Shown here one piece after another: positions 314 to 17,785 of a stretch of DNA of 64,000 bases. Location: positions 2,923,501 through 2,987,500 of the forward strand of contig NZ_CP102288.1 in the NCBI RefSeq assembly GCF_025151535.1. Direction: 5' to 3'. Source of the stretch: Segatella copri DSM 18205 (GTDB taxonomy: Bacteria; Bacteroidota; Bacteroidia; Bacteroidales; Bacteroidaceae). Both the position numbers and the translations under genes were made by a program. Below the pieces are notes generated by a model. That model was not told where the DNA came from, did no database searches, and was given only the letters and a program-made list of their open reading frames with translations. How positions within the stretch are numbered: position 1 is the stretch's first letter; each line of letters begins with the position of its first letter.

Positions 314-339
314 CAGCAGAAATCAAAACATAGAACTAT

Positions 340-627: not shown

Positions 628-640
628 CAAAGAAGAGTTT

Positions 641-3100: not shown

Positions 3101-3565
3101 ATGTCGAAGTATAAGAACAAGGATCCCGATTCGGGAGAATACGTAAAGAGGTCTGCAGGAAGACCGAAACTGTCCGAAGGTTCTGTTCGCACCATCGTGA
3201 AGAAGTTCCGAGTTAACCCGATGGAGAATCTGAATATCCAGACCAGTTTTGGAAAATCTCGTAAGAAGAAAGAAAGTGACTACCTGAGAGACGTGACTCA
3301 GTTTGGCAAGATTTTCGCTATTGCCTCACCTGAGGAGCTGCAACTGGGACGTGAGTATGCTGGTGCCCTGAATAACCTGAGCCAATTTGTTGCCATGGGG
3401 CATAAATACGGTATGTCCAAGTTCATCGAAGACCAGGTCATGGAAGTGGTCAGTCTTCTTAAAACAGGACTGGAAAAGCTCTACCATCCACACCGCTTCA
3501 TAAAGCGTGAGGAACTGGAGGGCGTTCCGATTGTTGAACCTAACGAAGAGGAGATTACATCATGA
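3101..3565 (+). CDS. Plasmid mobilization accessory (MobC/MocB-like) protein
   Basis: A 154-residue basic protein. The N-terminus is polar (KNKDPDSGEYVKRSAGRPK). Residues about 28-48 (VRTIVKKFRVNPMENLNIQ) recall the strand-helix start of mobilization RHH proteins. The middle (LNNLSQFVAMGHKYG) matches the pattern of Bacteroidota MobC-type proteins in which N-L-N-Q residues precede a helical C-terminus. Such proteins bind oriT and help the relaxase. The stop codon overlaps the relaxase start (ATGATGG at 3562), so the two are translationally coupled. Confidence 0.7.
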   Translation: MSKYKNKDPDSGEYVKRSAGRPKLSEGSVRTIVKKFRVNPMENLNIQTSFGKSRKKKESDYLRDVTQFGKIFAIASPEELQLGREYAGALNNLSQFVAMGHKYGMSKFIEDQVMEVVSLLKTGLEKLYHPHRFIKREELEGVPIVEPNEEEITS

Positions 3566-4674
3566 TGGCGAAAATCAAGGATAACATTGCATCCTTTGGC
3601 GGACGTGTCAACTATGTCAACAACCCCAAGGAGAAGAACAGCACCATCCTTGCCAGCAATGGATTATTGCTTGAAAGTAATCGCACGATTACTGAGAGTT
3701 TCAATTTCCAGGCGGCAGCAAATCCAAGAGTCACGAATCCTTCTGGGCATATTGCCATTGGCTTTGCTCTTCAGGACAAGTCAAAAATGACTGATGAACT
3801 TATGACTACCATCTGTCTTGACTATATGGCACGAATGGGTATTACTGAAACTCAGTTTCTTCTTGTCAGACATAGGGACAAAGACCATGACCATGCTCAC
3901 CTTTTATACAATAGGGTTAACTACGATAGGAAGACTATCAATGCTAATAACTTCAAGAAGAACATGAAGGTGTGTCGTGAACTTAGTCAGAAGTACGGAC
4001 TTTATATTTCAAGCGGAAACGAGCAGATGAATCTTGATCATCTTCGAGGTAAGGAGAAGCATAGGTACGAACTTATGGCTAAAGTCACCGAGGCCCTGGA
4101 GGAAAGCCATAGCTGGGACGACTTCAAGGAGGCTCTTCTTTCTGAGGGTGTCACTGTTGAGTTCCGCTTTGACAAGGTGATTGGCGAGCGTGTTGGTATC
4201 AGTTTCAAAGATGGCGAGTACAAGTTCAAAGGTTCTGCCCTGGGCAAGGATAAGTTCTCTCTCCCTGCTCTCGACAGATACTTCAAATACGAGGAAGCCA
4301 AGAACAAGGTGTACACAGACGAGTACAACCAACGCTACAGAATTGATCCAGAGTTCCCGGATATACGTCAGTACGAATATGTGGAGAATGAGGATGTAAC
4401 CCTTGTGGACAAAGTACACACCGATGAACCATTTGACATCAACAATGTGTTTGACTTCTCACAGAAATTCTCTGATTCTGGTTCAAGTTCTGCTGATGAA
4501 GGTTTTGGCATTGGTCGCAAAATTGCAGCTGCTGCTCTTGAACTGGCCATGGGTGGAACAGAAATAGCCCAGACTTCGGGCGGTGGCGGTAACAGTTCTT
4601 CCGGTGGATGGCGTGATGATGACGATGATAAAGAAGAGAACAAGAACAAGTATAAAAGAAAAGGAAGGAGGTGA
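3562..4674 (+). CDS. Relaxase/mobilization nuclease (MobA/VirD2-like)
   Basis: A 370-residue relaxase that should nick oriT and pilot the transferred strand. The N-terminal catalytic domain (about 1-165) contains the metal-binding histidine motif HRDKDHDHAHLLYNRV at about residues 104-119, the three-histidine signature of the MOBP/VirD2-like superfamily; tyrosine candidates include Y18 and Y88. The C-terminal third is low-complexity with serine- and glycine-rich tracts (SDSGSSSAD, GGGGNSSSGG) and a Lys/Arg-rich end. Two ATGs overlap the upstream stop; 3565 is equally possible. Length and layout match small Bacteroides mobilizable elements that depend on a helper conjugation system. Confidence 0.85.
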   Translation: MMAKIKDNIASFGGRVNYVNNPKEKNSTILASNGLLLESNRTITESFNFQAAANPRVTNPSGHIAIGFALQDKSKMTDELMTTICLDYMARMGITETQFLLVRHRDKDHDHAHLLYNRVNYDRKTINANNFKKNMKVCRELSQKYGLYISSGNEQMNLDHLRGKEKHRYELMAKVTEALEESHSWDDFKEALLSEGVTVEFRFDKVIGERVGISFKDGEYKFKGSALGKDKFSLPALDRYFKYEEAKNKVYTDEYNQRYRIDPEFPDIRQYEYVENEDVTLVDKVHTDEPFDINNVFDFSQKFSDSGSSSADEGFGIGRKIAAAALELAMGGTEIAQTSGGGGNSSSGGWRDDDDDKEENKNKYKRKGRR

Positions 4675-4680
4675 TTTTAT

Positions 4681-5522: not shown

Positions 5523-5558
5523 TGTATACTGATTTGTTAACTTTTAATTGATTTCCGT

Positions 5559-6212
5559 ATGGATAATAAGATTATTCTATTCTCAAACCTGAAGGGTGGG
5601 GTCGGAAAAAGTTGCCTGTCGGTGCTTTTCTCTACCTACCTTCATGAGCAGGGCATTCCGGTTATGGTGGTTGATGCTGACATTCAGCAGTCAATCTTCC
5701 GTCACCGTCAGCGCGAGTTGTCGGAGAACCCGTATGCCGCTCTACCCTGGCAGCTCCAGCCATTCAATTCTGATGACTTGGAAACTGTCAAGTCTGTGAT
5801 TGAGTCGCTAAAGCAGGTTCCTGCTTGTATCGTCGTTGATTGCCCTGGCAATATCAATGACCGTGCACTTGGTATGTTCTATCAGGGTGCAGATGTTGCC
5901 GTGACTCCTGTTCGTTATGACAGCGACAATCTGGATGCTACCCAGATATTCGCTGAGGTATTCAAGAGTGTGAGCAAGGCGAGGATGTTCTTCATTCCCA
6001 ACAGCATTGCAGCAGTTGAGGAGCGGAGAAACGAGGTGCAGGAGGCACGTGAGTCCGCCAAGAATCTGCTGGGGCCTTATGGAACGCTGACACCTCGCAT
6101 CAAGCAAAGCGTTGTTGTGAAGTGCTACAGTACCATACTGCCATTGACCACGTATCAGCGTAATGCCGTGAAGTTTGCATTCGAACCTATCATTGACTAT
6201 ATCAAGAAGTAG
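5559..6212 (+). CDS. ParA/MinD-family partition ATPase
   Basis: A 217-residue deviant-Walker ATPase. Walker A is KGGVGKS at residues 12-18, with the lysine at the third base of the motif typical of ParA. VVDADIQQS (about 38-46) is switch I and IVVDCPGN (about 90-97) is Walker B. The length is that of the short ParA form without an N-terminal HTH. It should bind DNA nonspecifically as a dimer and position the element or help its transfer. The ribbon-helix-helix-type gene four bases downstream is the likely partner. Confidence 0.85.
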   Translation: MDNKIILFSNLKGGVGKSCLSVLFSTYLHEQGIPVMVVDADIQQSIFRHRQRELSENPYAALPWQLQPFNSDDLETVKSVIESLKQVPACIVVDCPGNINDRALGMFYQGADVAVTPVRYDSDNLDATQIFAEVFKSVSKARMFFIPNSIAAVEERRNEVQEARESAKNLLGPYGTLTPRIKQSVVVKCYSTILPLTTYQRNAVKFAFEPIIDYIKK

Positions 6213-6216
6213 GCCT

Positions 6217-6627
6217 ATGTCGGACACAAACAACAATCAGGCATTGGTAGAGTTGCCAAACCTGAGCGATATTGTAAGAAGAAACACAGGTGCTGTTCCT
6301 CAGCAGGTTCAGAAACAGCAGGTAGCAGTTACAGAACCTGTTGCAGAAGAGACGAATCAGCTAAAGACTACACCTCCAACAGGTAAAGCTCCTCCAAAGA
6401 GGAAAATTTCCAAGGGCTCATCCGACAAATCGTCGGGTCAGCCTTCGGAACACTTTACCTTCATCTGTGATAATGTTATTGTAGAGAAGATAAAAGCTAT
6501 TGCTAGCCGTGAAGGCTTTACCATCCGTCAGGTAATGGAACTTTTTCTCAACCACGGCATTGATGCCTATGAACGCAAGCATGGTTCTGCCATATTTGTA
6601 GGTAAAGACATCAAAGACCTCTTGTAG
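6217..6627 (+). CDS. ParB-type partner with ribbon-helix-helix C-terminus
   Basis: A 136-residue protein starting MSDTNNNQALVELP, four bases after parA. The frame is open upstream to 6175 but that part lies inside parA. Residues 1-75 are polar and disordered (QQVQKQQVAVTE, KAPPKRKISKGSS). Residues about 85-125 (HFTFICDNVIVEKIKAIAS, FTIRQVMELFLNHGI) look like the strand-helix-helix of ribbon-helix-helix DNA binders. It probably binds a centromere-like site and stimulates ParA. A hairpin terminator follows at 6632. Confidence 0.65.
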   Translation: MSDTNNNQALVELPNLSDIVRRNTGAVPQQVQKQQVAVTEPVAEETNQLKTTPPTGKAPPKRKISKGSSDKSSGQPSEHFTFICDNVIVEKIKAIASREGFTIRQVMELFLNHGIDAYERKHGSAIFVGKDIKDLL

Positions 6628-6631
6628 ATGA

Positions 6632-6672
6632 AACCGATTGGTAATAGGCTAAATACTTATCACCAATCGGTT
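6632..6672. terminator. Shared terminator between convergent operons
   Basis: AACCGATTGGT (6632-6642) pairs perfectly with ACCAATCGGTT (6662-6672). It lies between the end of the plus-strand ParA operon (6627) and the end of the minus-strand protease gene (6697), with TATATTTTA after it on the plus strand. Confidence 0.7.
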
Positions 6673-6696
6673 ATATTTTATGAATGTCACACCTAA

Positions 6697-7599
6697 TCAC
6701 TCATCCTTCCTCTGGAACATCACCCCTGTTCCAAAGTCCAGCACCCACTTGTTCTTGTGCATGAAGTTCGAAGACAACATGCCTGAGATAGGCATGAGGT
6801 CATTGCCTTCTGCATCCTTCAAACCGTCCATTATATATTGGCAATTGCTGATGACCTGTACTTTGTCGTTTTGAGTGTATAGCTTAGGGCATTCTGGAGT
6901 TCCACCCACGCTGATGATGCTCAACGTGACATCGTACAATGCAGTTTCCAACGTATCTGTGGTAAAACAGGTTACAGTTCCCTCGTTATCCAAATGTCTT
7001 ACACAGATTCCTGCATCATCCATCAAGTGCTTTGTTATGACCGTATCATTTGCTCCAGAATCTGCCACCATCAGATACTCCTTATCGCCATAGACAAGTC
7101 CTACGACAGGAATGTTGTACTGCTTTAATCCGTATGACATCGTGAAGAAGAACGCATAATCCTCTGGATTGCCTTTAATAGATCCTTCTGAAGCATGTAA
7201 TGTTTCCGTCTCGTAGTCAAGCACCATGTTGTTGCGCCTTAGAAACTCATGCCCAATGATGCCGATGAATGGGCCGTCGAACATCTGATCAAAGTCCATT
7301 TCCTTGTTGACATAGAAGGTATCGGAGAACACTCCATTACCTATGCGAAATGACAACGAATAACCTTGACACTCCACACCTCTACCTTGTACAGAATGAA
7401 TCTTCATCGTTTTCCCCTCTATGGGAGCATCGTCATTGAGATTAGGAAGAACAGACTTGTTCAGAATACAGTTTACCGAACCGGTGTCTATCATCATGAC
7501 ACCGATGTAAATCTGCTCATCCTTTCCCTTGAATGCAGCTTTGACAATTGGGAATTTCGTCTCTTGTATGTCTCTCAGTTTTGCTGTGAATTTCTCCAT
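6697..7599 (-). CDS. Two-lobed retropepsin-like aspartic protease
   Basis: A 300-residue protein with two retropepsin-type lobes in one chain. Lobe 1 has the catalytic triad DTG at residues 38-40 (VMMIDTGSVNC) and the second signature FIGIIGHEFL at about 111-120 followed by VLDYET. Lobe 2 has DSG at 180-182 (LMVADSGANDT) and ISGMLSSNFM plus WVLDFGT near the end. Viral and most bacterial retropepsins are single lobes that dimerise; here the active site would form within one chain. No signal peptide or membrane helix is seen, so it is cytoplasmic. It is the last gene of a four-gene unit, 31 bases after the helicase. Substrate unknown. Confidence 0.75.
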   Translation of the reverse strand: MEKFTAKLRDIQETKFPIVKAAFKGKDEQIYIGVMMIDTGSVNCILNKSVLPNLNDDAPIEGKTMKIHSVQGRGVECQGYSLSFRIGNGVFSDTFYVNKEMDFDQMFDGPFIGIIGHEFLRRNNMVLDYETETLHASEGSIKGNPEDYAFFFTMSYGLKQYNIPVVGLVYGDKEYLMVADSGANDTVITKHLMDDAGICVRHLDNEGTVTCFTTDTLETALYDVTLSIISVGGTPECPKLYTQNDKVQVISNCQYIMDGLKDAEGNDLMPISGMLSSNFMHKNKWVLDFGTGVMFQRKDE

Positions 7600-7630
7600 G
7601 TTTATCTTTCCGGTTTGAGAAGAGCCCCCA

Positions 7631-9697
7631 TCATTCCTCGATGGGTTGCTCTTCGTTGAACTCCTGCTTCTTGATTCGGCGAATCAGGTAAGCAATTGCT
7701 TTTGGTACTTTCTCGCGACACACCTTCAGTTGGGCAAGGAACTCCTCTTCTGTAGCATCAGAGTTGAAGAGATCCACCAACTCGCAGTTGTTGTCCGACA
7801 ATTTGTCGAGCTGCAGGCCATGCTTCTGCATCAATGTGCGCAAGGCAAGGATGCCGAGGTCGTACTTTGGCCGTGCTTCCACCAGCTTTCGCATGAGATC
7901 AAGACCTGGATCACCAATGTGCATCTCATTGAGCATGGCAATCATGAAGAGTACCTTTGCGTCAGGTGTTGCCATCTCGAACACATTCGCCAACTGGCAG
8001 TTCGTTTCGTCAGCTTCCGTGTAGCGTTCAAGCTTTGCCAAAGCGCGCGACTTCACGTACAAAGCCTCCGCACATTGATGACCTTCTAGGACCTCACCGA
8101 TGAGAGCCAAGGCATCCTCGTACTTCTGAGCGTAGAGACTCAACAAGGCTGCAATGTACTTCGGAGCCCAATGATTTGAGCGGTGAAGACTTTCTGGTAC
8201 GCCCTCTATTGTCCCATACAGATGTTCGTCACACACCAGTATGTCCAGGAAACGCTTTGCCTGCTGCATCGCCTCCTTGAAGTCGCCATCCTCAGCCTTC
8301 TTTGCCACGAGCATCAGGTACTGTTTGGCAGCCTCATCGTAGTCGTTCTGCTGAAGAGCGCCATAGACAGCCTTGCCACTCTCGATCTCGTTGCCAATCT
8401 GCTGTTCGTTGTTGTACTCGCTTGCGTAAGTGAGCACTTCACGACTGGTGTGGGCATACTGAGGAATGACGTTCTTCGAGAGGTAAAGACCTTCCAGCGT
8501 ACGCACACGGCTGAGTGCTACGTAGAGCTGTCCTGCTGCAAACATACCTCGGCTCAGGTCGAGCGAGAGTTTGTCAAAGGTCATGCCTTGGCTCTTGTGT
8601 ACCGTTATCGCCCATGCCAACTTCAGAGGGTATTGGGTGAAGGTACCTGTTAGTTCCTTCTTCATTTTGCGCTCTTCCTTGTTGTAGTCGTAGCTGTACG
8701 ATTCCCATGAGCAACAAGGCACAACATACGTCTCGCCATTGTTGAGCGTAACGCTAATCTCGTCCTTGTTGAGCTTAGTCACCTTTCCGAGCGTACCGTT
8801 TGCCCAACGTTTCTGCTGGTCGTTGCGTGTAAACATCACCTGAGCACCAACCTTCAGGCGAAGTTTCAACTCTACAGGGAAGCGTTTCTCCTCAAAGGTT
8901 CCGTCAACTGTACCTTCGTATACGAACTCCTCTGCGTCAATCTCCTCCAGTCGCTGAAGGTTGATCTTGTCGGCAGTCTTGTTGATGGAAGCTAGGGTAA
9001 TGACAGCACCATCTTCCTCGCCTGGTGTGTGTACACGACCATTGAGGTGCATGATGTTCTCGGGTGTCACCTTGTTCATGCGGACGTTTTCCAAGATGTG
9101 AAGGAAGTGTTCATCATCCTGACGGTACACCTTCTGGAACTCAATCTTCACCAATCGCATGCGCTTGATGGCATCCGACTTGTAGAAGAAAAAGTCATCT
9201 GTATGGTACAAGTCCTTCAGCAAGTCTTTTTCTGGACCTTGCTTCACCACAGGAGGCAACTGGAACATGTCGCCCACGAAGATCATCTGCTTGCCTCCGA
9301 ATGGCATGTTGTTTCTGAGTGCCTTACGCATGGTGTAGTCGATGGCATCCATCACGTCACATCTTACCATCGACACCTCATCGATGATGATGGTATCTGC
9401 ATGGAGGAGGGTGAGGATTCTTGCTTCGTTCATCTTTCCGCAGGTTCCAGGAGTGCAAACCTCCATCGGAAGACCGAAGAAAGAGTGAATGGTATCACCA
9501 CCGGCAAGGATAGCTGCCACACCTGTTGGCGCAAGGGTGATGAACTGTTTTCCGACCAACTTCTGCACATTGTGGAGGAAGGTTGTCTTACCGGTACCAG
9601 CACGTCCTGTGAGGAAGAAACTGGAGTTTGTATTGGCAACAAGCTCGTATGCAAGTTGCTGCTCGTGGTTCTGTGGGTCTATCTGTGTGTTCTGCAT
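7631..9697 (-). CDS. Pif1-like SF1 helicase with C-terminal helical repeats
   Basis: A 688-residue protein. Residues 1-430 are an SF1B Pif1/RecD-like helicase: Walker A GRAGTGKT (31-38), LAPTGVAA motif Ia, HSFFGLP, Walker B IIIDEVSM (103-110), the GDMFQLPP motif III and the C-terminal TVHKSQGMTFD and YVALSRV motifs. It should unwind DNA 5'-3'. Residues about 440-660 are helical and repetitive (AAKQYLMLVAKKAEDGDF, ALYVKSRALAKLERYTEADE), like TPR repeats that bind partners. The tail is acidic. Three bases separate it from the upstream gene. Pif1-type helicases with helical tails are common in Bacteroidota; the setting with a protease and paired small proteins is unusual. Confidence 0.85.
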   Translation of the reverse strand: MQNTQIDPQNHEQQLAYELVANTNSSFFLTGRAGTGKTTFLHNVQKLVGKQFITLAPTGVAAILAGGDTIHSFFGLPMEVCTPGTCGKMNEARILTLLHADTIIIDEVSMVRCDVMDAIDYTMRKALRNNMPFGGKQMIFVGDMFQLPPVVKQGPEKDLLKDLYHTDDFFFYKSDAIKRMRLVKIEFQKVYRQDDEHFLHILENVRMNKVTPENIMHLNGRVHTPGEEDGAVITLASINKTADKINLQRLEEIDAEEFVYEGTVDGTFEEKRFPVELKLRLKVGAQVMFTRNDQQKRWANGTLGKVTKLNKDEISVTLNNGETYVVPCCSWESYSYDYNKEERKMKKELTGTFTQYPLKLAWAITVHKSQGMTFDKLSLDLSRGMFAAGQLYVALSRVRTLEGLYLSKNVIPQYAHTSREVLTYASEYNNEQQIGNEIESGKAVYGALQQNDYDEAAKQYLMLVAKKAEDGDFKEAMQQAKRFLDILVCDEHLYGTIEGVPESLHRSNHWAPKYIAALLSLYAQKYEDALALIGEVLEGHQCAEALYVKSRALAKLERYTEADETNCQLANVFEMATPDAKVLFMIAMLNEMHIGDPGLDLMRKLVEARPKYDLGILALRTLMQKHGLQLDKLSDNNCELVDLFNSDATEEEFLAQLKVCREKVPKAIAYLIRRIKKQEFNEEQPIEE

Positions 9698-9700
9698 GTC

Positions 9701-10207
9701 CTACTTCTGTTCGATTTGTGGGAGGATTTGGGTGAGACGTGTGTTGAAGTCGCTGTCGAGGAAGCTCTTGTAGCAACCTTCGACGATACCTTTGGCTTGT
9801 GCTTCAAGTTGTTCCTTCGGCATGGATGACCTCTGTGCCTTCAGAACGCCTTCGAAGTAGTTGCGCACCATGGTTTCCGACTCCTGACGGATGAACTCTT
9901 CGTTGCGAAACGTCTTGCCGTAGTCGCGCTTTTGTACGAGTTCCAGCCTTTTGCCGTTGAAGGCATAGACTTCGATGCCGTCGATGTAGGTCCAGGTATG
10001 GTAGAGTCCCACCTTTTCCACTATGACGATGCGGTCGCAGAATCGTACGCCTTTGTAGTAGCGGTGTCCGTTGCCGCTCTCGTATTCCTCGCAGAGGAAC
10101 ATCTTCTGACCTTCGTCCCACACAGGAACGTGAACTCTTGGGTTGCCGAATGTTGGCAGGATCTTGTCGAACAAGTCTTTGTTGATCGCTTTTGTAAGTG
10201 ATGCCAT
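9701..10207 (-). CDS. Unknown protein, paralogue of the next upstream gene
   Basis: A 168-residue protein of no recognised family. The central part (about 45-95) carries HRYYKGVRFCDRIVIVE and IDGIEVYAFNGKRLEL, which aligns with YYKAIRLSDRLAVYY and LNGITLFAWNGQKANI in the gene at 10267. Both then run into a helical C-terminus of about 60 residues. Predicted strands in the core suggest a small beta-rich domain. No signal peptide. It lies three bases before the helicase and 59 bases after its paralogue, so the pair and the helicase are co-transcribed. A partner or adaptor of the helicase is a fair guess only. Confidence 0.6.
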   Translation of the reverse strand: MASLTKAINKDLFDKILPTFGNPRVHVPVWDEGQKMFLCEEYESGNGHRYYKGVRFCDRIVIVEKVGLYHTWTYIDGIEVYAFNGKRLELVQKRDYGKTFRNEEFIRQESETMVRNYFEGVLKAQRSSMPKEQLEAQAKGIVEGCYKSFLDSDFNTRLTQILPQIEQK

Positions 10208-10266
10208 CTTCTTGTCTGTTTTTCTTGGTTTGTAACTTTGGTTGTCCTTCTCTCTGTGCCCTAGGC

Positions 10267-10710
10267 TTATCGGAGCAACTTCTGCTGGGTTTCCTCGATC
10301 ATGTTTCTGGAGAAGGCGAGCAATTGGCTGTCAGCGATGACGCTTCCCATGGCTTTTGCCTGTCCTGCGAGGAAGTCCTTCAGCATGATGATGCTCTCTT
10401 CCTTAGCTGTGCGCTCGTTGAAGCATCTCCAGTTGCAGCCGCCCCAGAACTTCTGTGCGATGATGTTCGCCTTCTGGCCGTTCCATGCGAAGAGCGTGAT
10501 GCCGTTCAGGAAGGTGTGAGCGTAGCCTTCACCTATGTGGTAGTACACGGCAAGTCGGTCAGAGAGGCGGATTGCCTTGTAGTAGGTGTTGCCAGCAGCG
10601 CTGGTGTAACCAAGGGTGAGGTACACGTTCTTCTCAGGATTGTAGGTGAGAGAACTGCCCGAGAGGGCTGGGAGTGCCTTTGCGGCAACGAGTGCGAGTG
10701 ATGTGTTCAT
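10267..10710 (-). CDS. Unknown protein, first gene of the helicase operon
   Basis: A 147-residue protein starting MNTSLALVAAKALP. A longer frame reaches 10797 but would begin inside the promoter element at 10817 region and has an odd composition, so the ATG at 10710 is chosen. The core GNTYYKAIRLSDRLAV and GITLFAWNGQKANI is shared with the downstream paralogue; residues 95-147 are helical. The conserved YYK-R-DR and GI-A-NG pattern defines a two-member family here. No known domain is recognised. A TAAATTTG promoter and an upstream palindrome control the unit. Confidence 0.55.
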   Translation of the reverse strand: MNTSLALVAAKALPALSGSSLTYNPEKNVYLTLGYTSAAGNTYYKAIRLSDRLAVYYHIGEGYAHTFLNGITLFAWNGQKANIIAQKFWGGCNWRCFNERTAKEESIIMLKDFLAGQAKAMGSVIADSQLLAFSRNMIEETQQKLLR

Positions 10711-10816
10711 CTTCGTTTCGTTTTGAGTTTGTCTGTTTAGCGGAATAGGCCGCCACCTCTGTTGTTGATAAATAAAATAATGTATAAACAAAACCAACTC
10801 TCTCGGAATTGCGGTG

Positions 10817-10824
10817 CAAATTTA
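10817..10824 (-). promoter_or_regulatory. TAAATTTG promoter of the helicase/protease operon
   Basis: It matches TAnnTTTG on the minus strand, 106 bases upstream of the ATG at 10710. The palindrome at 10860-10894 lies 35 bases further upstream. Confidence 0.5.
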
Positions 10825-10859
10825 CAGACTTTTTATCGTCCTGCCTAAGCTTTTCCCAA

Positions 10860-10894
10860 GTGTATTGGTTCCTCTCGATTTGGAACCAATACAC
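10860..10894. promoter_or_regulatory. Palindrome 1 (GGTTCC-TCTCGATTT-GGAACC), candidate operator
   Basis: A perfect 13-bp inverted repeat GTGTATTGGTTCC / GGAACCAATACAC around the 9-base centre TCTCGATTT. A near copy lies at 11143-11169 with the same centre type. Each sits 35-39 bases upstream of a TAnnTTTG element, which fits a shared operator better than a terminator, since no T-tract follows on either strand. Confidence 0.5.
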
Positions 10895-10906
10895 CGGATG
10901 TACGCA

Positions 10907-11023
10907 TTACTTCCTTCCTGCGAAGTAAGCTGTGATTGCAGTACCAATAGCTGAGCAGATAGCAGCAGCTAACATCCAACGATCTTTTTCTGTCATGGGC
11001 GTTTCTGTTTTTGTTGTTTCCAT
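10907..11023 (-). CDS. Small single-pass membrane peptide (38 aa)
   Basis: A 38-residue peptide starting METTKTETPM. Residues 1-15 are polar and charged, residues 16-34 hydrophobic (WMLAAAICSAIGTAIT), then AYFAGRK, the profile of a one-helix membrane peptide with a positive end. It lies between the WYL gene and the helicase operon, with its own TACCTTTG element and a palindrome upstream. Small membrane peptides in such islands are often toxins or effector subunits, but this is inference; the frame could also be fortuitous. Confidence 0.45.
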   Translation of the reverse strand: METTKTETPMTEKDRWMLAAAICSAIGTAITAYFAGRK

Positions 11024-11095
11024 TTGTGTATTGTTTTTGTACACCACCAACGATTTGCAGCGTCAACTCCAAGGTGGTGTTGAAGTTTGACGCTG

Positions 11096-11103
11096 CAAAG
11101 GTA
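11096..11103 (-). promoter_or_regulatory. TACCTTTG promoter of the 38-aa peptide gene
   Basis: It is a TAnnTTTG match on the minus strand, 72 bases before the ATG at 11023, with TTG at 11126-11128 as a possible -33 element. Palindrome 2 lies 39 bases upstream. Confidence 0.45.
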
Positions 11104-11142
11104 ATACGTTTTTCGCAAATAAAATCAAGTAGTCGTGTGTAT

Positions 11143-11169
11143 AATGGTTCCTCTCATTTTGGAACCATT
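11143..11169. promoter_or_regulatory. Palindrome 2 (GGTTCC-TCTCATTTT-GGAACC), candidate operator
   Basis: A perfect 9-bp inverted repeat AATGGTTCC / GGAACCATT around TCTCATTTT. It shares the arms, the centre and the flanking GTGTAT with palindrome 1 at 10860. Confidence 0.5.
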
Positions 11170-11172
11170 CCG

Positions 11173-12258
11173 CTATTCATTCTTGGGGTATAAAGTTGCT
11201 AATTCACGCACCCGTTGTGCCATTTCATCTCTAACAGATTCTGGTGAAATCACCTCCAATCCTGCTCCCATTTGAAGTATGCGTCCGTAGAACTCGTTGT
11301 TCGGCTCAACATCAACAGAAAACTCAGCATACTCACCATCTTCATATAGGGCGTATGGCTTAACAACGGTGTAACTCTGATGAAGAGGCTTCGTGTCCAT
11401 CAACTTATAAATATATAATGATCGCGCACGTATAATAATATGCTCCTTCTCTGCATCTTTCATGTGACTCACGCCAACGATGTCCTCAAAGAACCCATCA
11501 TAGAAATGCTTTGGTGCTGACACATATTCTATTCTTGACCTCTCACGAGGCTTTGACTGTATTCTGTCAAGAGCAATGTTATAGCCATACTCCGGCTCCC
11601 TTCCTTCTGTATGACCGAACAGATGCCATCTGCCGTTATACTCCTTCAGGTAGTGTGGGTGGAACATCAGCGTGACCTCTTCCTCATCGAAAGGTTTGTA
11701 GTCAATCTCCAGTACAGTTTTGTTTGTGATGGCTTCATACAACGATGGCAGGTACTCTATGTTGGTCAGAATACGATCAAGACTTGCACTTATTACCTGT
11801 TCTCCCTTTTGTCGTTTGGCTTTCATGTCCAGCAAGTCCTGACAATCTTTGAAGAAATACTCCAACCATGATTTAGGGAAGAACCCAGCAGAATCCTGAC
11901 AGAACTTCCAGTACTGACGCAGATTATTTATAGCCTTAGCGTTTCGCATATCTGCGAGAGGATCATTGTCCTTGCCTACATAACGGAAACGCTTATTTCG
12001 GTTATTCCCTTCCTCTTCAAAGCAATCGTTCCCAACCTTCTCGCAGATAGCCTTCTTTACTATGCCAACAGTCTTCTTCAGCTCGCCATAACCTTCGCAG
12101 TTGGATAGGTTTGCGGGTAGTTCTTCTGTAGAACATCCCAATCTGTCTGCCATAATATCCGCATAAGTAACCCATCGGCGACTCATAAGCCACCGATAGG
12201 TTACTATGGCAAATTCTGCCTTATAACTTTCGCCATCAAAGAGATTCATGCGTTGCAT
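11173..12258 (-). CDS. WYL-domain transcriptional regulator
   Basis: A 361-residue regulator. The N-terminus (about 5-90) is helical with a winged-helix character (YRWLMSRRWVTYADI). The WYL domain spans about 180-270: VLEIDYKPF, then HPHYLKEYNGRWHLFGH with the W-L core, and NIALDRIQ. A C-terminal WCX-like extension follows (QSYTVVKPYALYEDG, VRELATLY). WYL proteins sense ligands, often nucleic acids or nucleotides, and repress or activate defence loci such as BREX and CBASS (BrxR, CapW). Its start is two bases after the STAND NTPase gene, so it is the last gene of the XRE-NTPase-WYL unit. Confidence 0.8.
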   Translation of the reverse strand: MQRMNLFDGESYKAEFAIVTYRWLMSRRWVTYADIMADRLGCSTEELPANLSNCEGYGELKKTVGIVKKAICEKVGNDCFEEEGNNRNKRFRYVGKDNDPLADMRNAKAINNLRQYWKFCQDSAGFFPKSWLEYFFKDCQDLLDMKAKRQKGEQVISASLDRILTNIEYLPSLYEAITNKTVLEIDYKPFDEEEVTLMFHPHYLKEYNGRWHLFGHTEGREPEYGYNIALDRIQSKPRERSRIEYVSAPKHFYDGFFEDIVGVSHMKDAEKEHIIIRARSLYIYKLMDTKPLHQSYTVVKPYALYEDGEYAEFSVDVEPNNEFYGRILQMGAGLEVISPESVRDEMAQRVRELATLYPKNE

Positions 12259-12260
12259 AT

Positions 12261-15200
12261 TTATTCCTCACAGGCAGGTCTAATATTAATCGCGAATCCG
12301 AATGGAAGATTTGTTTTCGGATTTATTGTTTCAAAAATATCAAATACAACCTCTTCATTATCACGATAGTCGTATTGCGAAGGATTACAATCTGGAGCAA
12401 ATCCATTATTTCTATCGACAATATAAGTGAGTGTTCGGGTACTTATACGATCACGTCTATCGTTGATAAAACCATGGAGATTCTTCTTGCCATCTTTATC
12501 AATAGTTTTCTCCTTAAATTTAGACAAATCTATAGTACCGACAACTCTTGGCTGCAGTACTGTCGCTTCCTTCGTTTCTATTTCTTCAGCTGTTGGCTCT
12601 TCTTCTATTAGAACTTCTGTTGGAACATAAGATTTCTCAAGTTCCTCAAATGTTGTTTCAGTTTCATCCTGTTCGTCATAGATTTCGGAACTATTAACTA
12701 CATTTTCAGGTCTAAAATCATACAATCCTGGTCCACTATAAGAAAAACCTAACACACCACGTAGGGTTTGACCTTCATCGTGAAGTATTTCGAATCCCTT
12801 GGCATTAAATGTTACTTCTACACCGCAAAGCATCTTTAAGATACCTTTATTATTGTGTATATGATGTATAACACCTGTTACCGTGTCAGCATCGGTATCT
12901 TTCATGTTCTTGTCTATAATGCAATGAATGTCATCTCTTTCGCCTAAGTAACATTGAGGTAAAACTGTACCTTTGTCAAATCTCTTTGCAAAGTCTTCTG
13001 ACTTTCTAAAATAAGTCGAAGCTAACGAGGTTAACTCGAGATTAGGAACAGCTCTCTTAATAGATTTAGCGCAATAACAAACTGCTAGATAGAAGCAAGC
13101 ATTTAAGTACCCCCATCCTAATTGACTATTTTCGTCATATTGACTTTCCCATTCTTTGAGCAAATCGATGGCCTCATCAAGGGAGTATTCTTCGTTGCCA
13201 TAAAGCTTAAGCATAAACATTGTTTCAAAACTCTTGACATCACCTTTGTTCTTTTGAAACTCCAATATTCCTTCAATTTCTTTGCGCTCTTGTCTAGTCA
13301 GATTTCTATATGCCTTGCGAGTGTTTTTTGTAGAAGTTTTACTGTATACAATAGACTTGAGAAGTAAATTACCATAGAATAATTTCTTCTCTTCACTTGC
13401 ATTGTTATACATTTTGCGATATTTATCTATTGACTCTTTGCTCCTGCCAACAAGATTTTCATGATATGCTCTTACACTTTCATATATGTAGTAAGAATTA
13501 AGAATTTGGGTTAATCCGTCATTTTTAAATGCATAGCATATTTGTTCAAACATATCAAGAACAACTCCCAACTTTTCTGTATAATCTGAAAATACATAAT
13601 CAGTTTCACAGAAAGTATAATCTGTTGCTTGAAGCAATTTTTGGCCAAACTCTATAGCTTCTTTAAACAATTGACTTTCTGCCGCATATCCATAAGGGCT
13701 AGCAGGGCTTAATTGGATGCTTTTCTCAAACGCTTCATAAGCTTGCTGAACCCAATCTTCAAGGCAATCGCGAATGCCACGAACATCTATTTCTTCAAAC
13801 TCTTTCGTTTGAAGATCTCTATGGAACATCTTTGTGAGAGCGTTTATTCTACGGCGAAGTAACATTCCCTGCATATGATACAAATCCGTATCGTCCGGAT
13901 TAATATCAAACGCTTGGTGAAGTTGGTCTTGTGCATCAATAAACAAACGATCATCGACAGTTATAAATTTACTCATGTTTGCTTTCTCATACAAGAAACG
14001 AGCAAAATGTCCTCTAAAGACGGCATCCTCAGGGAAAGCTTCGACTAAAGAATGAAATAAAGATTCAGCTCTTTCAATATCATTAAGATCTTTTACTAAC
14101 AAAGAGAATTTGTTTCTGATGTTAGCGGCTTTATCTTCGAGGGCTCGATAGTCAGCATTTTTTCTTATGACAAATACACTATAAAGCATATCCTTGTCAT
14201 CAGAGCCTAATTCGCCTGCGGCTTGGCACAGAGAGATAAATTCCTTCGCAATCTCTGATAGTCCAGCCTCCCAATTTGATTTGTATGCTCCAAGAATAAA
14301 TGTAGAAAATCTATTATAACGAGGACGCCAAATACCAGTATTAGAACCTTCCACAGTCTCTTCTATCAAAATCTTCTTAATAGCATTTACGACTTCTGGA
14401 GGATATGACATTATAGAAAATTTACCTTCAATTTTCCATATTGATTTTAGCAATGTTTGATTTACGCCTAGGTCAGAGTACTTAAATACAAAGCCAACGA
14501 ATGCACAAAATTTAACTAAATTATCTGGCAAAACGCCCATCCATTCTTGTACGTAAGAACCGAGATTTTGGCTGGTTTTATTATCTCTGAGCATTAATGG
14601 GAAATCAACGACCTCTAAATTGTTGTGCTGTCTCTTTTGATTTTCCAGAAGAGACTCATTTAATCCTAGTTGTTTATACTTATCTTCAAATCTCAGAAGT
14701 TCATTTGCTTTTAATGATGATTCTAGCAGAACAACATTGTCCTTTGGTGTATGGTATGATCCAGTGAAAGGCTCAATGTAAAAGAAAACAACTTTCTTTC
14801 CTGCATCTGACATCCTTTTTACAAGATAGTCAAATTTTTCTCTACCAATATGTTTAGACTCTACCATTGCTAGAATAGGAGTGTTTTCCGTTTTCTCTGA
14901 AAGTTGACACAAATACTGGTCGGTTATACGAAGGTTGCTGCAATTCTTTATGTCTACAACAGTACATGACAAGAGTCCACTCTCATCATCCTTTGTTATA
15001 TCATAGCCAAGCCTTTTTGCTAAAGTTGTAGCGCCACTGCCAGGCCTATGACGAAGAGTAAAAATGGATGTTTTTCGAATTGTACGAATCAAATCTGTTA
15101 CTTTTGAACGTACGATTCTATACAAGTCTCGTTGAACGTCACATTGTTGTTCCAATTCTTCCCATGTAATCTCAGCGCCAGAATAAAAATCCCATTGTGA

Positions 15201-16583
15201 CTTTTCTGAATTATCCTTCGTAGGGCAATAGAAATCAATACCTGCTGCATGATATCGTTCTTTTGCTTCAGAGATATCTAATGATTTGCCCCTTAATAGT
15301 AGTTTGGTCGCGTTGATTTCTTTTTGAGGCTTGATTTCACTTACATGTACTAAAAAATCTGCAAATGTGGCTTCAACAAAGAATACCTGTACACCAGAAT
15401 ACTCCGCCCATTCCTCAAGTTTCTCTTTGTATGCGAGATTACTTGTAAATGAAATGATTTTACAACGGTTAGCCACAGCATCCCAATCTTCAAAAACATC
15501 CTCTAACTTCAAGAAAAGTTTTTCTGTAAGACCAAATGCATTATTTGAAAAATCAAAAATAATATAGTCTTTGGTTAATCCTGTCTTGACAAGCTTTGCG
15601 AATGTTTTAGAAAATAATTTGGGAGTATTTTTTAAAGTAGTTCTATCGTCCAATCCGCCCAAATCTACACGCCCCTTTGCAAATAACCAATTAGTGAGAT
15701 TTGAAGCACCTGTTACTTCGCTGATATTATCAGTAATTATGCGTATAGATGATTTTTTGAATGATGGAGCCTGCTCGTAAAGACCATCTGATGTTTTTTT
15801 GTTTAAATCAACGATAAAATGCCAATCTAAACGGAATACGTCTTGCAGTCTTCCTGCTTTCAATGTTTGTCCGTAGTTATCTTGTAACGTTTCTGGAAGA
15901 AGCGCTACGTAGTAATCATCTGTTGATTGTTCTAGATTATGTGTTATGTTGTCCAGTATTGAAAAATCATTGCTTACGTGAATGGCTTTTTCAATATTAA
16001 TGTCTGGCTTTATTTCGTTTTTTATAGGCATATCAAGAGATGCAAAGAATACTGCAGCCTCTTCGCTTACCTGCGTTTTTAAATCGTTAAATGCCTTTAC
16101 GAAAAATGTTGCGCAAGAATCAGCCTGAGTTTTTTCGTCTAAAGAGGAATCTGCTGTATGCATTACTACTTCACTTGATGTATTGTAGTACTCTATCATA
16201 TAATCCAGGCAGGTGTCTATTTTTACCTTGATTCTTTTTGACTTCGGAAACTGTCCTGGATCAAAAAGAGTCGGGAAAGCATAGTACATGGTCGACTTTG
16301 CAAGAGTTATAAAGAAAGAACCTTCTGGCTCTCTTGGTTGGGGTATTTGTACCAAGTTGCATACTTTGTTGCGAAAATCAAGGTCAAAAGAACTATCTCC
16401 GGCTATAATTTTTGAAGCCATCTCTTCTTCACCCTTGATTTTCATAGTATCGTATATCAGAAATTTTCCGATTAATTCTATACTTTTTCTTGTATGAAAG
16501 AAGTAATGCTCATAGTCTCCCTTGTTATAGAATTCTATGGACATGTTATATTGTTCCTTTAATTGTTCTTGAATATTTTCCAT
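12261..16583 (-). CDS. Giant STAND-type P-loop NTPase, SAMD9-like architecture
   Basis: A 1,440-residue protein. Residues 1-180 are helical. Residues about 215-420 are an alpha/beta domain (YYVALLPETL, LDWHFIVDLNKKTSDGL, YIIFDFSNNAF, KIISFTSNLAY) possibly related to the SIR2-like part of SAMD9 proteins. The P-loop is at about 511-521 (RHRPGSGATTLA): it has T-T but no lysine, as in the human SAMD9 loop, PGCGGTTLA as recalled. PILAMVESKH (about 569-578) may be Walker B. Residues about 800-1200 are TPR-like (AFDINPDDTDLYHMQG). Residues about 1345-1440 resemble an OB fold (LHGFINDRR). This order matches the published SAMD9-family layout. Coding sequence is AT-rich compared with neighbours. Likely a defence or cell-death switch. 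Confidence 0.6.
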   Translation of the reverse strand: MENIQEQLKEQYNMSIEFYNKGDYEHYFFHTRKSIELIGKFLIYDTMKIKGEEEMASKIIAGDSSFDLDFRNKVCNLVQIPQPREPEGSFFITLAKSTMYYAFPTLFDPGQFPKSKRIKVKIDTCLDYMIEYYNTSSEVVMHTADSSLDEKTQADSCATFFVKAFNDLKTQVSEEAAVFFASLDMPIKNEIKPDINIEKAIHVSNDFSILDNITHNLEQSTDDYYVALLPETLQDNYGQTLKAGRLQDVFRLDWHFIVDLNKKTSDGLYEQAPSFKKSSIRIITDNISEVTGASNLTNWLFAKGRVDLGGLDDRTTLKNTPKLFSKTFAKLVKTGLTKDYIIFDFSNNAFGLTEKLFLKLEDVFEDWDAVANRCKIISFTSNLAYKEKLEEWAEYSGVQVFFVEATFADFLVHVSEIKPQKEINATKLLLRGKSLDISEAKERYHAAGIDFYCPTKDNSEKSQWDFYSGAEITWEELEQQCDVQRDLYRIVRSKVTDLIRTIRKTSIFTLRHRPGSGATTLAKRLGYDITKDDESGLLSCTVVDIKNCSNLRITDQYLCQLSEKTENTPILAMVESKHIGREKFDYLVKRMSDAGKKVVFFYIEPFTGSYHTPKDNVVLLESSLKANELLRFEDKYKQLGLNESLLENQKRQHNNLEVVDFPLMLRDNKTSQNLGSYVQEWMGVLPDNLVKFCAFVGFVFKYSDLGVNQTLLKSIWKIEGKFSIMSYPPEVVNAIKKILIEETVEGSNTGIWRPRYNRFSTFILGAYKSNWEAGLSEIAKEFISLCQAAGELGSDDKDMLYSVFVIRKNADYRALEDKAANIRNKFSLLVKDLNDIERAESLFHSLVEAFPEDAVFRGHFARFLYEKANMSKFITVDDRLFIDAQDQLHQAFDINPDDTDLYHMQGMLLRRRINALTKMFHRDLQTKEFEEIDVRGIRDCLEDWVQQAYEAFEKSIQLSPASPYGYAAESQLFKEAIEFGQKLLQATDYTFCETDYVFSDYTEKLGVVLDMFEQICYAFKNDGLTQILNSYYIYESVRAYHENLVGRSKESIDKYRKMYNNASEEKKLFYGNLLLKSIVYSKTSTKNTRKAYRNLTRQERKEIEGILEFQKNKGDVKSFETMFMLKLYGNEEYSLDEAIDLLKEWESQYDENSQLGWGYLNACFYLAVCYCAKSIKRAVPNLELTSLASTYFRKSEDFAKRFDKGTVLPQCYLGERDDIHCIIDKNMKDTDADTVTGVIHHIHNNKGILKMLCGVEVTFNAKGFEILHDEGQTLRGVLGFSYSGPGLYDFRPENVVNSSEIYDEQDETETTFEELEKSYVPTEVLIEEEPTAEEIETKEATVLQPRVVGTIDLSKFKEKTIDKDGKKNLHGFINDRRDRISTRTLTYIVDRNNGFAPDCNPSQYDYRDNEEVVFDIFETINPKTNLPFGFAINIRPACEE

Positions 16584-16587
16584 AAAC

Positions 16588-16791
16588 TTAAAAGTTTTGA
16601 TTTACCAATAGTTCTCGAATGTTAATCTTTAGCATCTCCGAAATCTTTGCCAGCGTCTGCAAATTGGGTTGTGTGGTGTTTGTGCACCACTTGGAAACCG
16701 TTACGGGATCCTTCCCTAATTGACCGGCAAGCCAGACACCAGTTTTACCAGCATCAGCCAATGCTCCTTTGATTCTATTCAGATTTTCCAT
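16588..16791 (-). CDS. XRE/Cro-type HTH regulator
   Basis: A 67-residue protein that is almost entirely one Cro/C1 helix-turn-helix: GVWLAGQLGKDPVTVSKW forms the two DNA-contacting helices at about 18-35, and PNLQTLAKISEMLKI the supporting helices. It starts the minus-strand unit four bases upstream of the NTPase gene, with a TATCTTTG promoter at 16814. Small XRE proteins heading defence operons usually autorepress. Confidence 0.85.
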   Translation of the reverse strand: MENLNRIKGALADAGKTGVWLAGQLGKDPVTVSKWCTNTTQPNLQTLAKISEMLKINIRELLVNQNF

Positions 16792-16813
16792 GCAAATTTC
16801 TTAATGTTTGATG

Positions 16814-16821
16814 CAAAGATA
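16814..16821 (-). promoter_or_regulatory. TATCTTTG promoter of the XRE-NTPase-WYL unit
   Basis: It is a TAnnTTTG match on the minus strand, 22 bases before the XRE ATG at 16791. No copy of the GGTTCC palindrome is seen near it. Confidence 0.55.
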
Positions 16822-17134
16822 CTAAAAACCATTGAAAATATTGCTATATTCTTTGCAAATCATGCGTTACAACTTGATTTTTAACAATAATTGCACAAGA
16901 TTTCGTGTCATAGATGCCATTTCTGGTGTATATATGATGATTATGTTACTCTGTTACTATTTGTTTTATCTTCTCTTATGCTTGGGCTTGGTCTTAAGTT
17001 AAGCCTCGGGGTGGTCTTAAGTTCTTGCTTGTGGCAAGCGTCTCCTTTGTCGCAGAGCGAATACAGAAAAGAGGACAAAGAGACACGTGGAAAAGAAGAA
17101 GGAATTACATGTAATCCAAAGTGTCATAAATTTA

Positions 17135-17205
17135 GGTCGTTTTGCGGGTCGTTCGGGTCGTTATTGGGTCGTTTTCTTGATGTGGCAGGTCGTTATTAGG
17201 TCGTT
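17135..17205. repeat. Six GGTCGTT iteron-like repeats
   Basis: Copies begin at 17135, 17147, 17156, 17167, 17188 and 17199. Spacings are 12, 9, 11, 21 and 11 bases, close to one or two helical turns, so a bound protein would line one face of the DNA. Confidence 0.6.
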
Positions 17206-17230
17206 TCTGAAATCGAAAGAAACGTAAACT

Positions 17231-17391
17231 ATGGGCTGCTATGTACGACATAAGATGTATCTAAATGACAAAACCATCGAGAGAAATTTGAGCTGCTACA
17301 GGAACAATTCACAGAGTAATACATTGAGGAGTATATGGTTTACGATGAAAATGGTAAGCTGGTAGAGATTCTACGTCTAAGTGATGCTTGA
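17231..17391 (+). pseudogene. Remnant of a small gene, frameshifted and interrupted
   Basis: Frame 1 from ATG 17231 reads MGCYVRHKMYLNDKTIE. Removing the extra dinucleotide at a GAGAGA run near 17280 restores a frame reading EKFELLQEQFTE, then an in-frame TAA where GAA is expected, then YIEEYMVYDENGKLVEIL and LRLSDA to a TGA at 17391. The fluent protein pattern on both sides of two lesions suggests a decayed gene of about 52 residues. Family unknown. Confidence 0.4.
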
Positions 17392-17404
17392 TAATGCTGA
17401 ACGA

Positions 17405-17438
17405 GGTGGTCAGAGAAGGTGGTCAGAGGGTGGTCAGA
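17405..17438. repeat. Three GGTGGTCAGA direct repeats
   Basis: Copies at 17405-17414, 17418-17427 and 17429-17438. They share the GGTC core with the GGTCGTT and AAGGTCAC repeats on either side. Confidence 0.5.
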
Positions 17439-17610
17439 AAGATGACGTTTACAGAAACTTTACAGGAACCTTACAGAAATAGACAGAAACATGTGACGAG
17501 TTGTGTTAACGATTGCTTTGCTCGTTATGGCACCGTATTTCACGGCTCCATCCTATACAAAGCGTTAATTGAAATGTCACTTAATCATCAATTATTTCAC
17601 GAAATTTCAA

Positions 17611-17659
17611 AAGGTCACGAAAGATGAGTTTTGGTTCGAAAAGGTCACTTAAAGGTCAC
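17611..17659. repeat. Three AAGGTCAC direct repeats
   Basis: Copies at 17611-17618, 17641-17648 and 17652-17659, just before the tRNA terminator hairpin. Confidence 0.45.
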
Positions 17660-17671
17660 CAATAAAAGAAA

Positions 17672-17700
17672 AAGCAGTTAAGTTTTTGACTTAACTGCTT
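17672..17700 (-). terminator. Hairpin terminator of tRNA-Met
   Basis: AAGCAGTTAAG (17672-17682) pairs perfectly with CTTAACTGCTT (17690-17700) around a 7-base loop, directly past the tRNA 3' end on the minus strand; TTCTTTTTCTTTTATT follows. Confidence 0.65.
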
Positions 17701-17711
17701 GATTTTTAGTG

Positions 17712-17785
17712 TGGACCAGCCTGGGCTTGAACCAGGGACCTCCAGATTATGAGTCTGTTGCTCTAACCAACTGAGCTACAAGTCC
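17712..17785 (-). tRNA. tRNA-Met (CAT)
   Basis: A 74-base cloverleaf on the minus strand: acceptor GGACTTG with CTGGTCC, D-arm GCTC/GAGC, anticodon loop CTCATAA giving CAT, T-loop TTCAAGC between CCTGG and CCAGG. CAT fits elongator Met; a tRNA-Ile with modified C34 cannot be excluded by eye. Its 3' end borders the mobile element. CAAAGATA at 17811-17818 is the promoter. Confidence 0.9.

Follow-up and report, generated by a model that had tools for sequence, protein, structure and literature searches.

What does a three-gene unit of Segatella copri DSM 18205 do, in which a 1,440-aa protein is encoded between two regulators, and to which family does that protein belong? An earlier note on this DNA had read the unit as a bacterial relative of SAMD9 acting as an anti-phage switch. 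In humans, SAMD9 is both an antiviral and a disease gene; its bacterial relatives have been on record since 2017, and the available parts of two papers (PMC5445408; PMC13245274) describe their function as hard to predict.

In the window (the whole 64-kb stretch of DNA that was analysed), ORF calls confirmed three packed minus-strand genes with gaps of 4 and 2 nt. The first gene (16588..16791) has an ATG start and encodes an XRE regulator of 67 aa with HTH_3 above the Pfam cut-off; the second (12261..16583) encodes the 1,440-aa SAMD9-family STAND protein, assigned by structure matches and a profile chain; the third (11173..12258) encodes a BrxR-like WYL-WCX regulator of 361 aa with both domains above the Pfam cut-offs. 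The outer end of the unit, placed before at 16821, was corrected to that of the XRE gene. A frame opened at 16821 runs into a stop codon, so the former coordinate extends into the promoter region, where a putative Bacteroidota-type promoter (TATCTTTGC near 16820) was recognized by eye upstream of the XRE gene.

Kinship of the 1,440-aa protein with SAMD9

The order helical, alpha/beta, P-loop, TPR-like and beta, proposed earlier from the letters, was seen in both predicted models. All on the minus strand, an N-terminal helical domain (16014..16583; aa 1-190, with helices to residue 182 in the predicted model) is followed by a SIR2-like alpha/beta domain that precedes the NTPase (15249..15971; about aa 205-445), the P-loop HRPGSGATT (15024..15050; aa 512-520), a TPR-like helical array (12969..14204; about aa 794-1205) and an OB-like beta domain (12708..12920; about aa 1222-1292). 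The array was assigned by a structure match (TPR_19 reached E 0.002, below the cut-off), and the OB-like domain was paired with the C-terminal region of SAMD9 within a whole-half alignment. The claim of a P-loop without lysine was borne out: Ala replaces Lys, and in the 79 readable sequences among 80 homologues (one being unreadable) the position is occupied by Ala in 76, Gly in 3 and Lys in none. A His upstream of the P-loop, as in SAMD9, is present in 79/79. None of the PADLOC, NCBIfam and PHROG models matches the protein.

Kinship with SAMD9 was upheld by structure (Foldseek and VIA) and by a two-step profile chain. With either half of the model as query, Foldseek ranked human SAMD9 first (residues 1-460, E 2e-4; residues 440-1440, E 7.1e-24), and it was also the top match by VIA; in the half-model, residues 440-1293 align to SAMD9 645-1589, the domains not being aligned singly. 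Direct searches of PDB sequences gave one chance match at E 1.9 with the protein as query and nothing with its family profiles; the sequence link therefore needed AlbA-type bacterial relatives as a bridge. The 1,440-aa family matched these relatives by hhalign at E 5.5e-65 over 983 columns, and they in turn matched SAMD9 at E 6.5e-32. Superposed as a whole chain, the protein fits SAMD9 poorly (rmsd about 22 A, TM 0.37), and the domains may therefore be packed differently. The protein thus shows, besides the two-step homology, the core by which PMC5445408 delimits the SAMD9 family: a SIR2-like domain before the NTPase, a STAND-like P-loop with its Lys replaced and a His upstream, and a TPR array followed by a C-terminal OB domain. 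In the available part of that paper the P-loop is given as GGT/S, of which Ala instead of Gly in the 1,440-aa family is a variation.

Could the protein instead be an Avs5-type (SIR2-STAND, AVAST type 5) defence protein that merely resembles SAMD9? Avs5 likewise combines SIR2, STAND and repeats and is the next fold match after SAMD9, with a lower Z and a shorter alignment, yet a lower rmsd. It is, however, absent among the best 50 Foldseek matches listed, and the Pfam matches at E<=1 do not include PF20720 (nSTAND3). The 1,440-aa protein has an extra domain before SIR2 and does not fit GxxxxGK[S/T], whereas PaAvs5 has the Walker A lysine motif GPAGSGKT, which, according to the accessible part of the Avs5 paper, is needed for immunity. 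The profile chain, run for SAMD9 only, leads to SAMD9. We consider an Avs5-type identity improbable and assign the protein to the SAMD9 family.

A different domain in the place of the AlbA tRNase

The earlier claim that the domain order is that of SAMD9 holds from SIR2 through OB; the AlbA tRNase effector is absent, with another domain in its place. No AlbA match (AlbA_2 N-terminal to SIR2) was found in the 1,440-aa protein with Pfam, and hhalign homology to the AlbA-type relatives begins at about residue 208. The helical domain of aa 1-190, which occupies the position of the AlbA tRNase, is also found on UvrD-type SF1 helicases. Among 11 members, that of the window included, no Pfam family covers it (there were five chance matches, each in one member), and in the fold search of residues 1-460 the matches were filled by the SIR2 part. 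HEPN ribonucleases carry an R-x4-6-H motif. This motif does not support a HEPN assignment: S137 precedes the near-invariant H142, and the positions 4-6 residues ahead of that His hold no conserved Arg. Such a swap at the N-terminus hints at a SAMD9 core that can be coupled to differing outputs. According to the available part of PMC5445408, many bacterial SAMD9-family members have a kinase instead of AlbA_2, and AlbA has been lost in some.

An integrative element carries the unit

The proposed location on a mobile element was confirmed by an integrase, an attachment repeat and the same tRNA gene without the unit elsewhere. A 24-nt attachment core (17736..17759, minus strand) lies inside tRNA-Met (17711-17785) and forms the right end of the element. 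Its copy, a repeat of the tRNA-Met anticodon arm, adjoins a gene for a tyrosine integrase and lies outside the window, about 4.3 kb to its left; no repeat of the tRNA 3' end was found within the window. In two genomes of the same genus (G005 and G150), tRNA-Met is present without the unit. The unit is thus cargo of an integrative element of about 22 kb in tRNA-Met, which we count as new. The element also carries a gene for a MobA/VirD2-type relaxase (3562..4674, plus strand) and a ParA-like gene. The spread of the unit is patchy: it was found in 4/399 genomes of the family, and order-wide searches returned the window's own genome only (1/393; 1/364). Viral, phage and plasmid collections gave no homologue of the 1,440-aa protein.

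XRE and WYL genes bracket an exchange slot

As judged from sequence comparisons, the XRE and WYL genes bracket a slot that holds differing immune-type NTPases; this slot is also counted as new. In one relative, L039, the XRE, WYL and downstream genes show 81-86% DNA identity, and the genes between XRE and WYL encode unrelated STAND-type NTPases. In L039 and L021, the DNA breakpoints are no more than about 12 nt away from the stop of XRE and the start of WYL. Further NTPases stand between XRE and WYL in other relatives, with cargo matches to STAND, OLD-like and HATPase_c. The expectation that homologues keep both regulators was supported in part. Of 11 homologue loci, including that of the window, 9/11 have a WYL relative no more than three genes away; XRE is directly upstream in 5/11, reduced to a remnant at one, and not detected by tblastn at 5/11.

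From these findings a wider reading may be drawn, with slightly less than even confidence: some Prevotella-related Bacteroidales would possess an immune slot, an XRE/WYL-bracketed, exchangeable NTPase module with near gene-exact swaps on mobile DNA. A bacterial SAMD9 would be one of the plugs; in it, a new effector or adaptor domain that UvrD-type (GajB-like) helicases also carry would have taken over from the tRNase, wiring a common output domain to unrelated sensors.

Palindromes beside the WYL gene and a second operon

The palindrome TGGTTCC-N9-GGAACCA occurs at 11145..11167 and 10866..10888; these are the only two copies in the entire genome, both beside WYL. In a set of 301 genomes the palindrome and WYL are associated (p 5e-8), which points to a probable WYL operator. 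The palindromes precede a second minus-strand operon, not XRE-SAMD9. Here we found a structured RNA leader with a pseudoknot (11030..11104), a small ORF of 38 aa with one apparent membrane helix as seen by eye (10907..11023), a 147-aa protein (10267..10710), a related 168-aa protein (9701..10207) and a Pif1-type helicase (7631..9697), the last three being downstream of the unit in relatives too. Rfam has no family for the leader; besides tRNA, it gave one sub-threshold match on the leader's other strand. Pif1 identity is 91-94% in L001, L009, L021 and L039, down to 45% in L043, and <=45% in eight same-genus genomes searched.

The association has exceptions. A WYL match at 1e-60 is absent in 8/16 palindrome-bearing genomes, one of which, G073, shows two palindromes together with the downstream genes, and no WYL, within the 9.7 kb examined. 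The palindrome is missing at 3/15 WYL loci (L044, L051 and L052), L051 having a variant, TGGTTCT-N9-AGAACCA, directly after WYL. Among the 11 SAMD9-like loci, the Y/R-form palindrome is absent at L002, L003, L004, L005, L006 and L007; L004 has degenerate copies.

Palindrome pairs flank small genes of varying content (a 38-41-aa peptide or a 132-153-aa protein), and in L042 they flank cargo and WYL together, as would suit recombination sites for cargo exchange rather than operators. Against this, the large cargo is unflanked in the window, L021 and L039, in which the end of XRE and the start of WYL mark the limits of similarity; each window copy precedes a promoter-like sequence (by eye), and in L048 and L049 one copy lies just upstream of Pif1. 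A role in recombination is hence unlikely, and the palindromes are taken as probable operators.

Possible role in defence

The anti-phage role proposed earlier is plausible; the exchange slot speaks for it, as do defence-model matches near homologues. In the neighbourhood check, ten proteins encoded next to other homologues were chosen, and 6/10 matched defence models (three type I RM, and PtuA, DpdF and IetS). The unit may instead serve the mobile element, by stabilising it or by excluding rival elements, and not phage defence of the cell. Its position as cargo beside integrase, relaxase and ParA-like genes would agree with this, as would the small peptide gene and Pif1 helicase that adjoin it in relatives also; differing NTPases in the slot, however, are more in keeping with immune cargo than with a maintenance gene that stays fixed. 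We regard element service as rather unlikely, if less so than the other alternatives considered here. The two roles are compatible with each other.

Proteins of the TPR-STAND kind serve many functions, and signalling in stress or housekeeping, without immune role, could be among them. A literature search that covered few subscription papers found no experiment on a bacterial SAMD9-family protein and no description of an XRE-WYL slot. Against such a role, the unit is rare, patchy and on a mobile element, where relatives have immune-type NTPases; we give it little credence.

We favour, as somewhat probable, a bacterial SAMD9-family sensor switch on the tRNA-Met integrative element that would work as follows. 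The TPR/OB half would sense an infection cue; the lysine-less STAND core, by analogy with the family, would bind nucleotide and cluster; and the clustered N-terminal helical domains would be, or recruit, a growth-stopping effector. XRE, judging from its position, may hold its own operon low. WYL, encoded by the last gene, would control the second operon (small peptide, 147-168-Pif1) by binding the two palindromes. The XRE-WYL pair, as the sequences show, forms the slot that holds differing immune-type NTPases.

With a bacterial SAMD9 at a place where immune-type modules swap, the idea that SAMD9 arose in bacterial immunity can be put to a direct test. The slot offers a route to new defence systems, anything between such XRE and WYL genes being a candidate, and the palindrome could readily be used to report on the WYL regulator.

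Comparison with known systems

Human SAMD9/SAMD9L (9zjr and relatives) share with the 1,440-aa protein the SIR2-like domain, the lysine-less P-loop with upstream His, the TPR array and OB, in equal order. They differ in their SAM and AlbA tRNase domains, not found in the 1,440-aa protein, which has the helical N-terminus instead and a C-terminal tail (aa 1294-1440) outside the aligned part. As far as the available part of PMC5445408 (Mekhedov et al. 2017) goes, the bacterial SAMD9 family and the AlbA-type P0080 and P0201-P0213 have the same core; AlbA_2 is present in 13/14 of the latter, and the P-loop of P0080 is GGTT, whereas 76/79 of the 1,440-aa family have Ala. The nearest literature found was the Avs5 paper, whose accessible part notes structural likeness to SAMD9.

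BrxR-type regulators, in the available part of PMC9122601, likewise place WYL beside varied defence genes with inverted-repeat sites; those are 11-bp repeats with a 5-bp spacer, whereas the palindrome here has 7-nt arms and a 9-nt spacer, and WYL is the last gene of the S. copri unit. The P2/P4 phage-satellite hotspots, as far as described in the accessible part of PMC9122126, also combine a fixed place with varying immune cargo, but in S. copri two regulator genes delimit the slot, and the carrier is an integrative element.

Composition of the unit and its kinship with SAMD9

The unit comprises three minus-strand genes, encoding an XRE regulator of 67 aa (16588-16791), a large protein of 1,440 aa (12261-16583) and a WYL regulator of 361 aa (11173-12258). 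The gaps of 4 and 2 nt in the ORF listing agree with the tight packing described in the earlier note; the outer end it had placed at 16821 had to be corrected, because XRE read from there meets a stop. HTH_3 in XRE, and WYL and WCX in the WYL regulator, scored above the Pfam cut-off. In the large protein, nSTAND_NTPase5 (E 1.4e-5) and TPR_19 (E 0.002) fell below it, and no family matched among PADLOC and NCBIfam models.

Scoring of 7,991 candidates (those with most words in common) gave 80 homologues of the large protein at E 1e-3, with identities from 95% to 23%; the closest matches that carry a name come from relatives of Prevotella. By pattern search, the P-loop could be read in 79 of them (the exception being P0078, of 811 aa); the lysine position was occupied by Ala in 76, Gly in 3 and Lys in none, which bears out the lysine-less P-loop proposed from the DNA, and a His lies upstream in all 79. 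A P-loop GGT/S plus a conserved upstream His is described for the SAMD9 family in PMC5445408.

Searching PDB chains with the large-protein family profile alone gave no match. A protein matched by the large protein (P0080, E 3.4e-15), which bears AlbA_2, hit SAMD9 directly (E 1.3e-4 to 2.8e-3). Its own search listed 17 proteins, of which 14 were aligned as A6 (AlbA_2 on 13) and P0214-P0216 were left out; P0214 and P0216 carry PF19974. As a profile, A6 matched human SAMD9 at E 6.5e-32 (SAMD9 220-1036), and hhalign joined A6 to A7, the family alignment of the large protein (16 sequences, P0080 excluded), with probability 100 and E 5.5e-65 over 983 columns starting at about residue 208. Membership was thus tested in two ways: the large protein is almost certainly of the SAMD9 family, and the earlier suggestion of a bacterial SAMD9 relative holds. 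Another domain found on SAMD9-like bacterial proteins is HNH (P0072). The C-terminal tail of the large protein (aa 1294-1440), past the SAMD9-like part, contains a linker modelled with low confidence as well as a second region of beta structure, and is less constant than the core across homologues.

An N-terminal domain shared with helicases

The N-terminal domain of the large protein matched no Pfam family. It also stands at the front of SF1/UvrD helicases about 646 aa long (hhalign of the two sets of N-termini, 99.9%, E 3.7e-33). A search with the first 200 residues of such a helicase, confined to proteins 0.55-1.75 times its length, found 159 proteins at E<=1e-3; among the matches listed, 119 of 120 carried helicase Pfam domains. 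Invariant or near-invariant residues of the domain include Y12, R32, E36, D45, S137 and H142. HEPN domains carry the motif R-x4-6-H, which is absent here.

The helicase gene (L017 1501-3447; also in L019) adjoins a preceding UvrD-type gene. Its best PADLOC model is C3a187 (NERD+UvrD), and both genes match UvrD-type PADLOC models, GajB included. The pair is a possible two-gene defence system.

Variable genes between XRE and WYL

A WYL search of 301 family genomes found 15 carriers, and the regions around the 14 besides the window were read. Among the five closest (55-85% WYL identity), the cargo ahead of WYL comprises proteins of 1,701 and 545 aa in L039 (ATPase_2 and nSTAND1 above cut-off); 1,548 and 610 aa in L040 (zinc ribbon above, ATPase_2 below); 811 (HATPase_c, below), 196 and 238 aa in L042; and 721 (AAA_15/AAA_21, matching NsnB, AriA and GajA models) and 435 aa in L043. 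L041 retains a 164-aa DUF3825 piece, and its WYL match has an internal stop. L039, L040 and L041 have an XRE (in the last, 37 aa could be aligned); none was found in L042 and L043. In L040, a Schlafen AlbA_2/RecG-type protein (4453-5982) adjoins the XRE-WYL exchange slot.

DNA of the window matched that of L039 at 16589-16838 (XRE and promoter, 86%), then with no match of at least 60 nt until 12263, and again at 11005-12263 (81%) and 7591-10892 (86%). The corresponding matches were 16600-16837 (85%) and 7619-12258 (87%) with L021, and were limited to 7619-12246 (76%) with L040. At the protein level, identity with L021 is only 26% for the large protein but 89% for WYL and 97% for both the 147-aa and the 168-aa protein. 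The other nine carriers have WYL proteins 37-46% identical, in different contexts; in four of these loci (L048-L051), 2 of 8 proteins tested, one each in L049 and L051, matched NsnB/AriA-type models. Proteins of this type are OLD-like.

Across 11 homologue loci (the window, L001-L009 and L021), the regulator partners expected in the earlier note were recovered at most loci for WYL and at fewer for XRE. In 9, window included, a WYL relative is no more than three genes away, with an identity of 90% to 30% in the other eight; it is upstream in L008 and three genes on in L006. There is none at L003, and the L007 sequence stops at the SAMD9-like gene. An XRE homologue is directly upstream in five (window, L001, L004, L009, L021; tblastn, E<=0.01), and L008 keeps a 28-aa remnant. 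The genes for the 147-aa, 168-aa and Pif1 proteins follow in 9 of 11. Of ten neighbours picked by size from L001, L003, L006, L007 and L008, six matched defence models (three type I RM genes in L003, PtuA in L006, DpdF-type in L007, IetS-type in L001) and four matched none; as there was no control set, we claim no enrichment.

Mobile element, distribution and proposed role

To the right, the element is bordered by tRNA-Met (17711-17785). In the window, G005, G150 and G033 alike, this tRNA gene has the same neighbour, which encodes a cation-ATPase-like protein (P-type, going by a DKTGTLT motif seen by eye). The corresponding loci of G005 and G150 contain no ORF of at least 80 aa matching window 1-17,700. 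An exact 24-nt copy of the tRNA anticodon arm is found some 4.3 kb beyond the left end of the window (L081 15707-15730). The gene beside it scores above the cut-off for Phage_int_SAM_5 and just under it for Phage_integrase. This puts the element at about 22 kb. The attachment-type copy, the integrase gene and the tRNA-Met sites without the unit confirm its location on a mobile element. The element also encodes a relaxase, a ParA-like ATPase, a helicase-loader-like protein and, left of the window, a YhcG-type PDDEXK nuclease (L081 17441-18652). Identity to the element's Pif1 is 91-94% in L001, L009, L021 and L039 and 45-88% in the remaining carriers, and no match in eight genomes of the same genus exceeds 45%.

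The large protein has matches in 4 of 399 family genomes (E<=1e-10): the window's own, G307 (close, full-length), G397 (remote) and G285 (N-terminal domain only). The genus gave 2 of 60 (its own and one N-terminal-domain match), the order 1 of 393 (its own), and an 84,980-species collection 9 loci; no homologue was found in viral contigs, phages or plasmids.

The unit quite likely serves defence. On balance we favour, as the best explanation, a SAMD9-family sensor switch set in an XRE-WYL slot on a tRNA-Met integrative element. The step from sensing to effect would follow STAND biology and the model of SAMD9 action in PMC13245274.

Leader and palindromes beside WYL

Beyond WYL, two palindromes enclose sequence that by eye resembles a promoter, along with a structured leader (11030-11104, minus strand) and a small ORF. 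The ORF (10907-11023, minus strand) encodes 38 aa with one apparent membrane helix. Similar peptides occur in L001, L021 and L040, and a protein of 132-153 aa takes this position in L004, L008, L009 and L039; L001 has both kinds. Next come the related 147-aa (10267-10710) and 168-aa (9701-10207) proteins, without match in Pfam or PHROG; their genes sit with the Pif1 helicase gene in relatives too.

The leader was located by its start, TTTGCAGCGTC, in 11 of 15 loci scanned (the window and ten relatives), and matched no Rfam family. It can fold into a 15-pair stem plus a 5-pair pseudoknot with 93.2% of cells paired (weaker, 83.6%, in the pseudoknot helix; at most 51.9% in slid versions) and 4 pairs changed on both sides (reached by 7 of 500 shuffles), figures favoured by a structure drawn from the same sequences, themselves chosen by the leader start. 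The leader is a structured RNA with a possible pseudoknot.

The palindromes (TGGTTCC-N9-GGAACCA, 11145-11167 and 10866-10888) are the two sites found in the window with spacers of 4 to 14 nt, and 100 shuffles gave none. Across the 3.3-Mb genome, YGGTTCC-N9-GGAACCR hit these two sites and no others, and a reversed control pattern hit none. Among 301 genomes, 16 had the exact palindrome, 15 WYL and 8 both (Fisher p 4.6e-8, a value flattered by a pattern chosen from the window and some tested loci); the control occurred in 3. The Y/R form accompanies 12 of 15 WYL loci. In L008, L042 and L043, where the search found no intact XRE ahead of the cargo, a copy stands upstream of the cargo gene, with one mismatch each in L008 and L043. 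The palindrome is thus a probable operator of WYL, judged from sequence. Binding to an inverted repeat is described for BrxR, a WYL regulator (PMC9122601).
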